A stretch of DNA of 64,000 nt from a virus, in the IMG/VR virus record IMGVR_UViG_3300032018_000004, positions 1 through 64,000 of that record, one strand, 5' to 3'. Position numbers and translations under genes: made by a program. Of this stretch, positions 44,822 to 60,736 are shown piece after piece. Under the pieces are notes generated by a model. The model saw only the letters and a list, made by a program, of their open reading frames with translations. It made no database searches and had not been told where the DNA came from. The first letter of the stretch is position 1. Each line of letters starts with the position of its first letter.

Positions 44822-45124
44822 ATGAAAAAATCTAAATTCAATTGCATAAACATGAATAAGGAATTGTTTGAAGTCTCTGGCTATGTCTCTGAGCATTTCG
44901 GGATTCATAAAGTTAGCATCAGAGGTGGAACATTGTGGGATGTAACACATCTTAAAACAGGTGGGGCAATTGTTCCATTTGAATTAAAGAAGAAAGCCAG
45001 GGAGTTTGTTGGCAGGCTGGAAAATGAAACACCTACAATCCCCTGGCAGGATATGACTCTTGAGAATTGTTACATGAACACAGAAATTATTCGCCAGAAC
45101 AGAGATATTGTCTTGGGTTATTGA
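44822..45124 (+). CDS. Unknown small protein
   Basis: 100 residues (MKKSKFNCINMNKELFEVSG). Central HKVSIRGGTLWDVTHLKTGG suggests a beta-hairpin domain. AGAGGATT precedes the ATG. Function unknown. Confidence 0.6.
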   Translation: MKKSKFNCINMNKELFEVSGYVSEHFGIHKVSIRGGTLWDVTHLKTGGAIVPFELKKKAREFVGRLENETPTIPWQDMTLENCYMNTEIIRQNRDIVLGY

Positions 45125-45158
45125 AAACAAACATAACAATCAAATAGGAGATAAAAGA

Positions 45159-45839
45159 ATGAAACTCTACAAATTGACAAAACAAGATGGCACTACTCAT
45201 GATGGATATAAATATGGAATTATTGGTAAAATTCATAAAAAAGAAGAAAAACATAACCCCCGACTTTGTTCTTCTGACGTCTTTCACGCCTACAAGAATA
45301 TTAATTTAGCTTTTCTATTAAATTCCAACCATGCCAATATTAATAACCCTGTTTTGTGGGAGATTGAAGGAGATATTTGTTGCGAAGATTTTGGGAAGGT
45401 TGGTTCTTTCCAACAAAAAGTTATTGGTAAAATAAATTATCCCAAATGGGTGAATTCCGATAGAGATAATAAAGTCAGAGTTTTATTTGCTATTCTCTGC
45501 GCTGAATCAGTTTATCCTTTATGGGAAAAATATAATGGAAAAGATAAGCGGGTTTTGGAGGCTATTTTAGCAGCACGGGAATATCTAAAAAACCCAAGCA
45601 GCGCTGCTGCTGCTGCTGCTGCTGCTGCTTATGCTGCTGCTGCTGCTGCTGCTTATGCTTATGCTGCTGCTGCTGCTTATGCTGCTGCTTATGCTGCTGC
45701 TGCTGCTTATGCTTATGCTGCTTATGCTGATGCTGCTGCTGCTGCTGCTGCTGCTGATGCTGCTTATGCTTATGCAGCTTATGAGATCGACTTCTGTGAA
45801 TTGGCAGATAGATCGGTTATTGAAAATGGATTTACATAA
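45159..45839 (+). CDS. DUF7666-like phage protein with Ala/Tyr-rich low-complexity region
   Basis: 226 residues from ATG 45159 with GGAGAT upstream. The first 130 residues follow a pattern known from phage accessory proteins: MKLYKLTKQDGTTHDG, SSDVFHAYKNINLAFLLN, VLWEIEGD, RVLFAILCAESVYPLWEKY. The region from about residue 147 to 206 is almost only Ala with Tyr and a few Asp, coded by GCT runs. The family commonly carries Ala-rich tails, but the Tyr-spaced pattern here is extreme. Function unknown. Confidence 0.7.
   Translation: MKLYKLTKQDGTTHDGYKYGIIGKIHKKEEKHNPRLCSSDVFHAYKNINLAFLLNSNHANINNPVLWEIEGDICCEDFGKVGSFQQKVIGKINYPKWVNSDRDNKVRVLFAILCAESVYPLWEKYNGKDKRVLEAILAAREYLKNPSSAAAAAAAAAYAAAAAAAYAYAAAAAYAAAYAAAAAYAYAAYADAAAAAAAADAAYAYAAYEIDFCELADRSVIENGFT
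45598..45775 (+). repeat. GCT/GCTTAT microsatellite within the Ala-rich gene
   Basis: Runs of GCT interrupted by TAT, encoding AAAAYAAAAY-type sequence. In-frame slippage would change the length of the low-complexity segment without destroying the gene. Confidence 0.95.
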
Positions 45840-48989: not shown

Positions 48990-49592
48990 ATGAGAACTTT
49001 GGTTTTGACAGAAAAGGATTTTAAGAAAAGAGAAGATGGCTATAAAGAGTATAATGGGAATGAAGATTTTTCTAAATTTGAGGGGAATCTTGAGATTGAA
49101 ACTAGTGGATGTTTCTTCTTTAAGGAGATATTCGTATCAGGCCATTTATGGATTAAAGCCGGTGGTTCCATTAAAGCCGGTGGTTCCATTAAAGCCGGTG
49201 GTTCCATTGAAGCCGGTGGTTCCATTGAAGCCGGTGGTTCCATTGAAGCCGGTGATTCCATTAAAGCCGGTGATTCCATTAAAGCCGGTGATTCCATTAA
49301 AGCCGGTGATTACATTGAAGCCGCAAGAGGTGGGATTTGTTGTGGGCTGACGATAACCTGTAATGGAATTTTGAAATTTGCATTGAAATTATTCGCCGGG
49401 GTTTCCCCTCATTCTTGGAATTCAAATTGCAAAAATACCGTGACTTGCGGGAAGCTTGAAGGTAATGTTGTTTATGGAACAGTTGTTGAAACAGGGATTA
49501 AGGTAGAAAAAGAAACCATTAATATCGGAGGAAATGTTTATGAAGTCACGGAAGAATTGAAAAATGCTTTGGAAAATTTGAAGAAGATTTGA
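48990..49592 (+). CDS. Hexapeptide-repeat protein (predicted beta-helix)
   Basis: 200 residues. Residues about 55-111 are nine and a half copies of a six-residue unit (I-K/E-A-G-G/D-S), predicting a short parallel beta-helix. Related phage proteins with GDIKAGG-type units exist with no known role. The flanks, SGCFFFKEIFVSGHLWIKA and later ARGGICCGLTITCNG, continue the solenoid pattern less regularly. GGAGAA before the ATG. Confidence 0.7.
   Translation: MRTLVLTEKDFKKREDGYKEYNGNEDFSKFEGNLEIETSGCFFFKEIFVSGHLWIKAGGSIKAGGSIKAGGSIEAGGSIEAGGSIEAGDSIKAGDSIKAGDSIKAGDYIEAARGGICCGLTITCNGILKFALKLFAGVSPHSWNSNCKNTVTCGKLEGNVVYGTVVETGIKVEKETINIGGNVYEVTEELKNALENLKKI
49152..49322 (+). repeat. 18-bp tandem repeat (nine and a half copies)
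   Basis: Unit ATTAAAGCCGGTGGTTCC with mostly silent or AAA/GAA and GGT/GAT changes. Copies fall in sub-blocks, which suggests stepwise duplication. Length change keeps the frame. Confidence 0.95.
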
Positions 49593-56246: not shown

Positions 56247-57365
56247 TTATCGAAATAATTCACTTTCTTTGTTAGAGGAACTATAAATGCCTCTATTGTG
56301 GATATTAATAGCGCCGTTTGACTTATCAACTACGCCACATGAAGAACAGGTTTGGCTTGTATATGCTGGATCAACGGAGAGAAGATAGAAACCTTCTTCT
56401 TCAGACCGTAATGCCAGTTTAGCCAGAACCTGCTTGTAAGACCAATATTGAAGTCTGTTTTTAAATTTAGTATTTAGTTTCGATTTGTATTTTACATTCT
56501 TAAGGTCTTCAACCACTACGAGATTATACGACCCAAGGTCGATGTTGTTTACAATTTGGTTAGTGAGATTTTTCTTGTGGATTAGTAGCTGTTTATAGTT
56601 CTTAGAGCCTCGTTTTTTGTCGGCAAGTTTTGCATAAATCTGTTTTAATTCCTCACCATAGTGAAAGCCATTTGAATCAGAAATTAACTTATTATAGCCG
56701 CAATCCAACCCGATTGATTTGCCATGTTGTTTTACTTGTGCTTGTTCTTTCTCATAGAAAAATGTGACGTAGAAATTTCCATTGATTTTAGATAATTGAA
56801 TAGTATTTTTTCGAGTCCAATCTTTAAATTTCAAACTATTCTTGTGCTGTTTAATTGGGACATTAATTGTTTGGTATAGGCGCTTATCTTTCTTATACGG
56901 AGTAGTTATCCTAATAAATGAGTCAAATGAACTGCTTTCCTTAATGTTCCATAAATGATATCCTAAATTTATTGAAATAGTTTTTACGTCAATTTTAATA
57001 CGTTTCAAATAATTAATGTTTAGTTCTGAATATTTCTTATTTAAAAACGATTGATGGATATCCTTTATCTTACACTTGGTATAAAGTTTCTGATATCGCT
57101 TGAATGTTTTGTTTTTTGTGTATTTTAGATTTGAGCGGATTATTTCAGAAGCTGTTTTATAGGATAACTCTTTCCACGAACTATATTCAAAAACATCATT
57201 ATGGAGATCTTTGCATGACATTAACTTCTTGAGTGGCAACTCGCCTTTGACGATGAGATCGATATACAAAATTACACACTGCTTAAAGTCCTCATGAATC
57301 TTTTCGAGGAGGGCAAGTTTGCGTTTATTTGCGAATTTAAGAGTATGTTTAGATGATCTTATCAT
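56247..57365 (-). mobile_element. TnpB-like protein lacking second zinc knuckle and RuvC-III acid
   Basis: 372 residues, IS605/IS200 OrfB family. RuvC-I: SIGLDCGYNK with D221. RuvC-II: LVVVEDLKNV with E286. First zinc knuckle: TSQTCSSCGVVDKSN (C340, C343). Normal TnpB proteins then have a second CxxC and a D-x-N acidic site before a GAINI-type helix. Here KSN is joined directly to GAINIHNRGIYSS, so about 25-30 residues are missing without a frameshift. No tnpA is present. The stop lies one base beyond the convergent lysin stop. Nuclease activity is unlikely; it may be decayed or reused as an RNA-guided binder. Confidence 0.85.
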
Positions 57366-58460: not shown

Positions 58461-58913
58461 ATGAATGAAATTCTTTTCCTACTAATTTTAGGCCATTTGT
58501 TTGGAGATTATTTGCTCCAGTCATATTGTCTTGCCGTCAATAAGAAGAAATATTCATTGATTGGTTGGAGTTCTGCAACTTATCATTGCCTTATTTATAC
58601 CACTACAATTTATGGATTTTTATTAATTGAGGGAATTAAATTAAATTTCATTCAATGCCTCTTAATTTTCCTGTCACATTTTATCATTGACAAGTTTCCA
58701 GTTATTGAATACTATATGAAAGTGATGGATATTAGAAGTTGGGATAGAGAGCTTCCTAAAACAGGCAATGGTGTAGATTTTGAAAATAAAGAACCAATTA
58801 CAATTATTCAATTAGTTACGACATCGTTTGGGTCGTTTGTTTATATTATGTGTGATAATACATTTCATTTATTCTTTATGTATTTAATTCTGAAATTCAG
58901 TATTGGAGTATAA
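58461..58913 (+). CDS. DUF3307-like membrane protein
   Basis: 150 residues. The head MNEILFLLILGHLFGDYLLQS and the following HCLIYTTTIYGFLL and FLSHFIIDKFP carry the His/Asp pattern of DUF3307 proteins found in phages and bacteria. Four membrane helices are likely. It ends one base before the adenylyltransferase fusion gene. Function unknown. Confidence 0.75.
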   Translation: MNEILFLLILGHLFGDYLLQSYCLAVNKKKYSLIGWSSATYHCLIYTTTIYGFLLIEGIKLNFIQCLLIFLSHFIIDKFPVIEYYMKVMDIRSWDRELPKTGNGVDFENKEPITIIQLVTTSFGSFVYIMCDNTFHLFFMYLILKFSIGV

Positions 58914-58914
58914 A

Positions 58915-59832
58915 ATGAAGGTAGTATATCCTGGCACATTTAACCCATTCACAATTGGACATAAATATGTTCTTGATCAGACGTGTCGTATGTTTGGTGG
59001 TGAAAATGTGACAATCTTATTGGCAGAGAATACAGAAAAAGATCAAGGATATTTTAAGTCCAGGAAAAGGCATATTGTCCCGGTACACAATAATGTCGAT
59101 TGTTATAAAGGTCTTACTACAGGTTATTGTTTTAAGAATGAAATAGAATTGATTGTTCGCGGGGTGAGAAATCAATCGGATTTCCAGAATGAATACAATA
59201 TGTCAAGTTGGAACAATGAACTATCAGATAATGATGTCAAGACTATTTTAATTCCATGCCCACCAAAATTGCAGAATATATCTAGCAGCGCCATTAGAAC
59301 CTTATATGATTGCGATGTAGACGTTAAAAAATATTTCTGCAATGATTATTCATATCATAGGTGGACAGTCAAGGAACCTAAATACAAAATTTATTTTGGC
59401 AAGATGGCAGTTGGCAAATCTAGCTTATTGAGTGGGGAAAAATATGTAGATTTTGACAAATTCATTTATAGCCAATTTTCTGTAGAGGAAGAGTCAAGAT
59501 ATAGGGAATTATTTTCTGATGCTATTAGAAAAAGAGATCATACTCAATATAATTTTGCAATTGATTCAATGTCTTTAAATATAGATAAAGTCAAATTATT
59601 CAAGGATGCTTTTAAAATTTCCAACACATTTGAAATATCGGCAATTGGGTCGTGGTTTGATGAAATTCCTATAGGAATCATAAGAGATGCAGAAATTATT
59701 AAGGTCGAATGTTCAGAAGAGGAACGGGTAAATAGGGCAATCAAAAGGGGCATAAGTATGGAAGATTTTGAAAATTTTAATTCTTTTTATAAAGACCCAC
59801 CATTTTGGGACAGGACAATAGTTAGTGAATAA
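58915..59832 (+). CDS. CoaD-like adenylyltransferase fused to a P-loop kinase-like domain
   Basis: 305 residues from ATG 58915 behind GGAG. Residues 1-145 follow phosphopantetheine adenylyltransferase: YPGTFNPFTIGH (nucleotidyltransferase site, H16), IVRGVRNQSDFQNEYNM and NISSSAIRTL. Residues 157-305 carry a P-loop, GKMAVGKSS (162-170), a VDFDKF acidic strand and a late Arg-rich segment RVNRAIKRGISMEDF, recalling dephospho-CoA kinase or nucleoside kinases. The first domain would make dephospho-CoA or a related AMP conjugate; the second could phosphorylate it. NadR-like NAD salvage is the alternative. Unusual in a phage. Confidence 0.75.
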   Translation: MKVVYPGTFNPFTIGHKYVLDQTCRMFGGENVTILLAENTEKDQGYFKSRKRHIVPVHNNVDCYKGLTTGYCFKNEIELIVRGVRNQSDFQNEYNMSSWNNELSDNDVKTILIPCPPKLQNISSSAIRTLYDCDVDVKKYFCNDYSYHRWTVKEPKYKIYFGKMAVGKSSLLSGEKYVDFDKFIYSQFSVEEESRYRELFSDAIRKRDHTQYNFAIDSMSLNIDKVKLFKDAFKISNTFEISAIGSWFDEIPIGIIRDAEIIKVECSEEERVNRAIKRGISMEDFENFNSFYKDPPFWDRTIVSE

Positions 59833-60736
59833 TTTTGATTTTCTAAAATACTTCTCTGATAAAGACCTAAGATATAAGACTTCTGGAAAAAATATCGGGG
59901 GAGACTGGGCGGCACTTTCGGACTGTTTTTTTTGTGGTAAAGAAAATTATCACCTAGCCGTGAATCAAAAAAAACAACAAATAAGTTGCTGGGTGTGCGG
60001 AAAACACACTACGACTGAACTAATAAAAGCAATCGAAAATTGTTCCTGGCAAAAAGCAAAACAAATCCTAGAACAATATTCCCTCACTCCAGACTCTATA
60101 CTGGATCAAGAGGAAGAGATTGAAATTGTAAGGCCAAATTCTTACAAACTTCCACAAGAATTTACAGAGCTATTTCCAAAAGAAGCTAAGGATTATCTGG
60201 TAAGGAGAAGATACGATTTTCTGACGCTGAGAAAAAAATACGGAATTCTATGGTCAGAAAATTTTGGAAGAGGCAAATTTAGAATTATCTTTCCTGTCTT
60301 TGAAAATAACAAAATTGTGAATTGGGTTGGAAGAGATATCACTGGCAATAAATCAATCATGCCATATATGTTTGAGAAGAACGAAGTGGCTTTAGTCCCA
60401 AGGAATGAGCTAATCTATAATCTTGATAACGTAAAAAATGAAAAGTGTGTGCTATTTGAAGGTTTGTTTAATGTATTAAGATTTGGGAATAATTCATTAG
60501 CTCTTTTGAGTCAGCAATTCACGAAACAACAGATCGTGAAATTGAAAAATAAAGGAATAAAGAAATTCTATATTTGTTTTGACAATGAAGAGAAGGCCCA
60601 GGAGAAAGCGAAATTGCTGGAAGGGTATCTCACCTGGGCAGATGAAATAAATTATATTGATTTACCAGAAAACGTGAATGATTTTGACGAGTTAGATGAC
60701 GAATCGGTAAATTATATTAAAAGGATGATATTTTGA
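59825..60736 (+). CDS. DNA primase, DnaG type with zinc and TOPRIM domains
   Basis: 303 residues, GTG start at 59825 overlapping the previous gene by eight bases. A zinc domain holds SDCFFCGKE and SCWVCGK (C34, C37, C55, C58). The catalytic part has CVLFEGLFNVLRFG (TOPRIM Glu) and FYICFDNEEKAQEKA (TOPRIM Asp/Glu in a D-x-E arrangement). It lacks a helicase domain; a DnaB-type helicase is encoded separately at 62573. It makes primers at the replication fork. Confidence 0.85.
   Translation: MNNFDFLKYFSDKDLRYKTSGKNIGGDWAALSDCFFCGKENYHLAVNQKKQQISCWVCGKHTTTELIKAIENCSWQKAKQILEQYSLTPDSILDQEEEIEIVRPNSYKLPQEFTELFPKEAKDYLVRRRYDFLTLRKKYGILWSENFGRGKFRIIFPVFENNKIVNWVGRDITGNKSIMPYMFEKNEVALVPRNELIYNLDNVKNEKCVLFEGLFNVLRFGNNSLALLSQQFTKQQIVKLKNKGIKKFYICFDNEEKAQEKAKLLEGYLTWADEINYIDLPENVNDFDELDDESVNYIKRMIF

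Follow-up and report, generated by a model that had tools for sequence, protein, structure and literature searches.

In eukaryotes, phosphopantetheine adenylyltransferase (PPAT, CoaD) and dephospho-CoA kinase (DPCK, CoaE) are joined in one protein, CoA synthase (PMC6650551). Fusion to PPAT has also been informative in archaea, where the partner of PPAT led to a non-homologous DPCK, arCOG04076, described as a distant relative of thiamine pyrophosphokinases (PMC6650551). By the same logic, DPCK is the likeliest identity of a kinase joined to PPAT. A nucleotidyltransferase followed by a P-loop kinase is also the arrangement of NadR, which consists of an NMN adenylyltransferase (NMNAT) and then a ribosylnicotinamide kinase. 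The literature on CoA synthesis in phages is scarce, and a full-text search combining phosphopantetheine adenylyltransferase, dephospho-CoA kinase and phage returned nothing on the subject. The phage gene analysed here encodes a PPAT-type domain with a conserved active site, followed by P-loop and lid motifs. This architecture is known in kind as the PPAT-DPCK fusion, while the compact phage version with a divergent second half is new.

The gene lies in a virus contig of 80,974 bp (IMG/VR record IMGVR_UViG_3300032018_000004), the first 64,000 nucleotides of which form the window analysed here. It occupies positions 58915..59832 of the plus strand, which also holds its domains, its motifs and the two neighbouring genes given below, and fuses a PPAT-type domain to a P-loop domain in a protein of 305 aa. 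The open reading frame is single and intact, with 305 codons from the ATG at 58915 to the TAA stop at 59830-59832, and a Shine-Dalgarno-like GGAG is located at 58905-58908, 6 bases 5' of the ATG. The reading frame and the motifs quoted in the initial annotation were recovered as described, with YPGTFNPFTIGH at residues 5-16, RGVRNQSDF at 82-90, NISSSAIR at 121-128 and GKMAVGKSS at 162-170. Upstream, the stop codon of a gene for a DUF3307 membrane protein (58461..58913; Pfam PF11750 at 1.2e-9, phrog_2470 at 2.6e-14) ends at 58913, directly ahead of the ATG of the fusion gene. Downstream, the gene for a Toprim primase (59825..60736; phrog_47 DNA primase at 2.9e-37) starts at 59825 and overlaps the 3' end of the fusion gene by 8 bases. 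Positions 40-64 kb of the record had no close DNA match among 50,697 phage records, and the terminase of the record is about 32% identical to Salinibacter phage terminases, the best among the matches listed.

Several other features of the contig were recorded. A TnpB-like protein, recognized by eye, is encoded at 56247-57365 of the minus strand, inserted opposite to the direction of the early genes. An Imm5-like protein with a long repeat rich in alanine and tyrosine is encoded at 45108-45839, and tandem KAGGSI/KAGDSI repeats, possibly forming a beta-solenoid (the FapA match is weak), are found at 48990-49592. Beyond the window, positions 67802-71125 of the record hold an RNA-repair-like cluster composed of a CCA-adding enzyme with an HD domain, RlaP and an RNA ligase, and a DNA polymerase III alpha-like protein, again recognized by eye, is split over two ORFs at 73179-76480 with a gap at about 74132-74564.

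Domain 1 (residues 1 to about 150; 58915..59364) is, near certainly, a PPAT-type enzyme, with PPAT activity predicted accordingly by family. The NCBIfam CoaD model TIGR01510 matched residues 3-141 over model positions 2-143 of 155 (E 1.3e-23, 83.7 bits), and although this score does not reach the equivalog cut-off of 103.3 bits, CoaD is the best family by far. The NadD model TIGR00482 gave 18.5 bits (E 0.0016) over 31 residues only, and Pfam CTP_transf_like matched at E 8e-9. A search of PDB sequences returned PPATs only, the best being the Thermotoga maritima enzyme 1vlh (E 3.5e-14), with the active-site motifs aligned. When domain 1 was compared with 32 other rows in the 33-row alignment A8, P6, G7, F9, P11, H16, K42, R85, D89, E93, S123 and S124 were invariant. 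The first five belong to the HxGH-family motif YPGTFNPFTIGH (residues 5-16; 58927..58962), which carries the catalytic-type His16; R85, D89 and E93 belong to RGVRNQSDFQNE (residues 82-93; 59158..59193), a PPAT-type RGxRxxxDFxxE motif; and the two serines belong to NISSSAIR (residues 121-128; 59275..59298), the nucleotide-binding ISSS motif.

Structure prediction and phylogeny agreed with this assignment. AF2 run from the single sequence gave a pLDDT of 29.5, and with the 33-row alignment it gave a pLDDT of about 90 over most of residues 1-140. The resulting model was closest to solved PPATs, the best fold match being Escherichia coli PPAT 6ccq (Z 21.3, rmsd 1.8, 148 residues) as against a Z of 13.5 for the best NMNAT, Staphylococcus aureus NadD; the input alignment itself held PPAT rows, so that this fold result depends partly on the sequence result. 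In the tree, domain 1 fell with 22 PPATs and apart from 6 NadD sequences on a branch supported at 100/100, although an AU test did not reject its constrained placement on the NadD side (p-AU 0.185). Among the PPATs it sits in a poorly resolved, largely phage half of the tree. Family profiles, fold and tree thus bear out the initial annotation of the N-terminal half as PPAT. Compared with the bacterial enzymes of known structure (E. coli and T. maritima), domain 1 shares its whole extent, its fold, the HxGH-family motif, K42, RGxRxxxDFxxE and ISSS. It differs in being about 20-30% identical to them, in having a shorter stretch past the K42 loop, in scoring below the equivalog cut-off and in carrying a second domain.

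The second domain (residues about 157-305; 59383..59829) is a divergent P-loop domain in which the Walker A motif, a DxD and the lid arginines align with those of phage CoaE (alignments A3 and A8). In Mycobacterium tuberculosis CoaE, Lys14, Asp32 and Arg140 are important residues (PMC3019153), and the phage CoaE positions that match them align with K168, D181 and R274 of domain 2 in A3 and A8. K168 is part of the Walker A segment GKMAVGKSS (residues 162-170; 59398..59424), which fits GxxxxGKS. D181, the counterpart of the catalytic Asp of CoaE, closes the DFD segment (residues 179-181; 59449..59457) and is invariant in A3. R274 lies in ERVNRAIKRG (residues 270-279; 59722..59751), a lid-like helix in which R271, R274 and R278 are all invariant in A3 and which is the segment of domain 2 scoring strongest against the CoaE profile. 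The LNxxxHPxI motif of the CoaE CoA domain is absent from domain 2. H91-P92 is invariant across the CoaE set A5, and the HP motif is likewise missing in phage CoaE of the L023 type.

Curated families did not recognize domain 2. No kinase family in Pfam or NCBIfam matched it even at E 10 with filters on, the CoaE models PF01121 and TIGR00152 had no match to it at E 10, and a CoaE model scan of the whole record found nothing. Close relatives were also absent, both from viral contigs searched with peptide patterns and from phages searched by tblastn to E 10, and among plasmids no match covered 80% of protein P0001. A CoaE profile built in this work scored domain 2 at 11.3 bits, while 200 composition shuffles reached 4.0 at most. 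The corresponding hhalign score was 35.0 against 19.1 for shuffles, or 29.1 for shuffles in which the Walker region was kept, and the excess over shuffles against CoaE profiles came mainly from the lid-like segment. When 491 natural ORF pieces were ranked by hmmsearch, domain 2 came next after the true CoaE pieces and ahead of all non-CoaE pieces, whereas in hhalign other P-loop proteins scored equal to or above domain 2 against CoaE. The best single relative, out of 33 comparisons, was a bacterial CoaE (L202; z 5.5 and 5.8), whose similarity covers the strand-lid-strand region.

The structure check that the initial annotation proposed for both halves was informative for the first one. Domain 2 was modelled by AF2 at a pLDDT of 40-74, only four CoaE-bearing rows of the alignment spanned that half, and the fold search was barely informative there. 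Since only domain 1 was confident in the 33-row prediction, the domain 2 model is unusable and we base no claim on it. Sequence by itself does not separate domain 2 from other P-loop proteins. Because the motifs are kept, the profile signal is weak and the HP motif is missing, we describe domain 2 as a likely P-loop kinase-like domain that falls short of established CoaE membership. The initial description of the C-terminal half as P-loop kinase-like is therefore upheld by the motifs and the weak profile similarity. Its further likening to DPCK stands in part, in that the genomic context described below (phage CoaE beside CoaD, and bacterial fusions) favours it, while neither a family match nor a confident structure was obtained for it. 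By this context, CoaE is our best single guess for domain 2, at about even odds.

Scanning with the PPAT alignment revealed huge-phage loci in which the tblastn match extends from CoaD into the next gene. In two of these (L023 and L041) the gene after CoaD is CoaE by Pfam, at 1.9e-10 and 3e-10. When every CoaD locus was scanned for CoaE, the phage loci L011/L042/L036, L023-27/L041, L019, L021 and, weakly, L075 turned out to have it adjacent to CoaD; L099, which also belongs to the L023 group, has an adjoining CoaE as well. The arrangement thus occurs in about five phage lineages. Certain other huge phages have CoaE distant from CoaD, and one CoaE (L261) shares a contig with the CoaD of L035. 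Among 80 bacterial coaD loci, none had CoaE within the flank of up to 3 kb. The present gene shares with the huge-phage pairs (L023, L041, L099, L011, L042) the side-by-side placement of the two functions, the second being putative here, and in L023, L041 and L099 the pair moreover lies in one reading frame with a single stop in between. The pairs differ in consisting of two genes, whereas here there is one fused gene, and the CoaE of L023 and L041 is recognized by Pfam while the kinase half here is divergent. Recoding of the in-frame TAG between CoaD and CoaE of L023 and L041 was considered and judged unlikely, because the homologous L099 has TAA at that place and because an AAGGAG-like site lies ahead of the kinase start.

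Fused genes were found in bacteria. In the phylum of genome G004, whose genomes measure 0.5-2 Mb, several members have the PPAT gene beside the DPCK gene and five have the two as a fusion, and the intact PPAT-DPCK fusions of these five small-genome bacteria (L230/L253, L248, L252, L255 and L256) appear in no account that our paper searches found. Two of them were scanned against curated cut-offs, and both halves exceeded these in each case (152 bits for PPAT and 106 bits for CoaE in L248; 155 and 90 bits in L256). The bacterial fusions have in common with the phage gene that PPAT comes first and the kinase second in one ORF, theirs being about 370-397 aa. Unlike domain 2, their CoaE half is canonical, and their PPAT half is not especially near phage domain 1. 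Another bacterial PPAT (L234, 871-1902, minus strand) carries, in the same chain, a P-loop domain that likewise goes unrecognized as CoaE. A scan of genome contigs detected CoaD genes and no further fusion of CoaD to a P-loop domain. HD-like domains, assigned by eye, occur behind CoaD in two phages (L008, L017), whose proteins had no Pfam HD match, and ahead of CoaD in seven loci from Mucilaginibacter and others (L118, L122, L124, L125, L126, L139, L155). The CoaD proteins with an HD-like domain (L008, L017, L118, L122) were set aside as another kind of fusion that offers no parallel. With eukaryotic CoA synthase the phage protein shares the domain pair and, presumably, the pair of steps. It is small, however, and its second domain is unrecognizable as CoaE by profile; the likeness drawn here is one of architecture. 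Going by the published description of arCOG04076, the archaeal PPAT-arCOG04076 fusion differs from the phage protein, whose domain 2 carries a Walker A P-loop.

The reading we favour, with a probability of about 0.5, is that the gene encodes a compact bifunctional enzyme finishing CoA, with PPAT and DPCK in one chain as a phage CoA synthase. Domain 1 would transfer AMP from ATP onto 4'-phosphopantetheine to give dephospho-CoA, a step strongly indicated at the level of its family. Domain 2, as a pared-down P-loop kinase whose lid is short and whose substrate-binding region is reduced, might then convert dephospho-CoA to CoA; for this step we draw on the logic of the fusion and on the weak similarity to CoaE. 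Produced together with replication genes, such an enzyme could maintain the CoA supply of the infecting phage or restore CoA from 4'-phosphopantetheine while infection proceeds. Both activities, the substrate of the kinase and the benefit to the phage are what we infer from the features observed.

A second reading, possible at odds well below even, couples PPAT to a P-loop kinase or NTPase of other substrate or role, so that only the PPAT step would belong to CoA synthesis proper. Candidates for domain 2 would in this case include a pantetheine or pantothenate kinase, which would supply PPAT with 4'-phosphopantetheine, and kinases acting on nucleotides or RNA. The failure of profiles to tell domain 2 from other P-loop proteins, the missing HP motif, the comparable bacterial fusion L234 and the RNA-repair genes elsewhere in the phage all fit such a role, while the recurrence of CoaD-CoaE pairing in phages and bacteria and the CoaE-like placement of lid and DxD in the alignment speak against it. 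A degenerate or regulatory C-terminal domain, sensing ATP or controlling oligomer formation with no phosphotransfer, is unlikely: domain 2 is short, ends directly after the lid and is very divergent in sequence, but it retains the Walker A motif, the DxD and the lid arginines, which would be unexpected in a decayed kinase.

The initial annotation had also raised the NadR parallel and with it a role in NAD pools. Positions 77976-80621 of the record (15976-18621 of L236) encode PRPP-synthetase-like, Macro and NAMPT-like proteins. The NAMPT-like protein is 62% identical to an SPbetaL1 protein that we take to be Namat, and the PRPP-synthetase-like protein is 40% identical to the product of the gene just upstream of it, taken by position to be Adps; the SPbetaL1 record annotates both as hypothetical. 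In our reading of the alignment, the Namat-like protein has aromatic residues at both clamp-helix positions. These genes are likely a NARP1 NAD+ rebuilding module with Adps-like, Macro-domain and Namat-like proteins. NARP1 makes NAD+ from ADPR-PP and nicotinamide without an NMNAT step (PMC12774641), and so the main reason for expecting an NMNAT in the fusion gene is gone. The gene resembles NadR in having a nucleotidyltransferase followed by a P-loop kinase-like domain and differs from it in that the first domain is of PPAT type and not of NMNAT type, and a ribosylnicotinamide kinase identity of domain 2 found no kinase family match at E 10 with filters on. An NMN adenylyltransferase joined to a nicotinamide riboside kinase and acting with the NAD+ genes of the same phage is thus highly improbable, the AU result and the presence of those genes notwithstanding, given the CoaD over NadD scores, the fold and tree placement of domain 1 and a NARP1-type route that needs no NMNAT, and the NAD branch of the initial annotation found no support.

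Returning to the CoA-finishing reading, the neighbouring CoaD and CoaE genes of larger phages make CoA rebuilding appear to be a recurrent and little-noticed phage activity. We tentatively suggest, as a doubtful but wider proposal, that phages repeatedly carry a CoA-finishing module of PPAT and DPCK, here fused and with a kinase half that would be a new minimal type of DPCK, and that this module may form, together with the NARP1-type module, a cofactor-rebuilding programme answering host attacks on cofactor pools. As a single small protein, the fusion allows both steps, and possibly a new kind of DPCK, to be tested directly, and its co-occurrence with an NAD+ rebuilding module makes the broader idea of cofactor rescue testable. 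A fused compact CoA synthase, together with CoaD-CoaE pairs in several phages, would suggest that some infections are limited by the supply of CoA or that hosts attack it.
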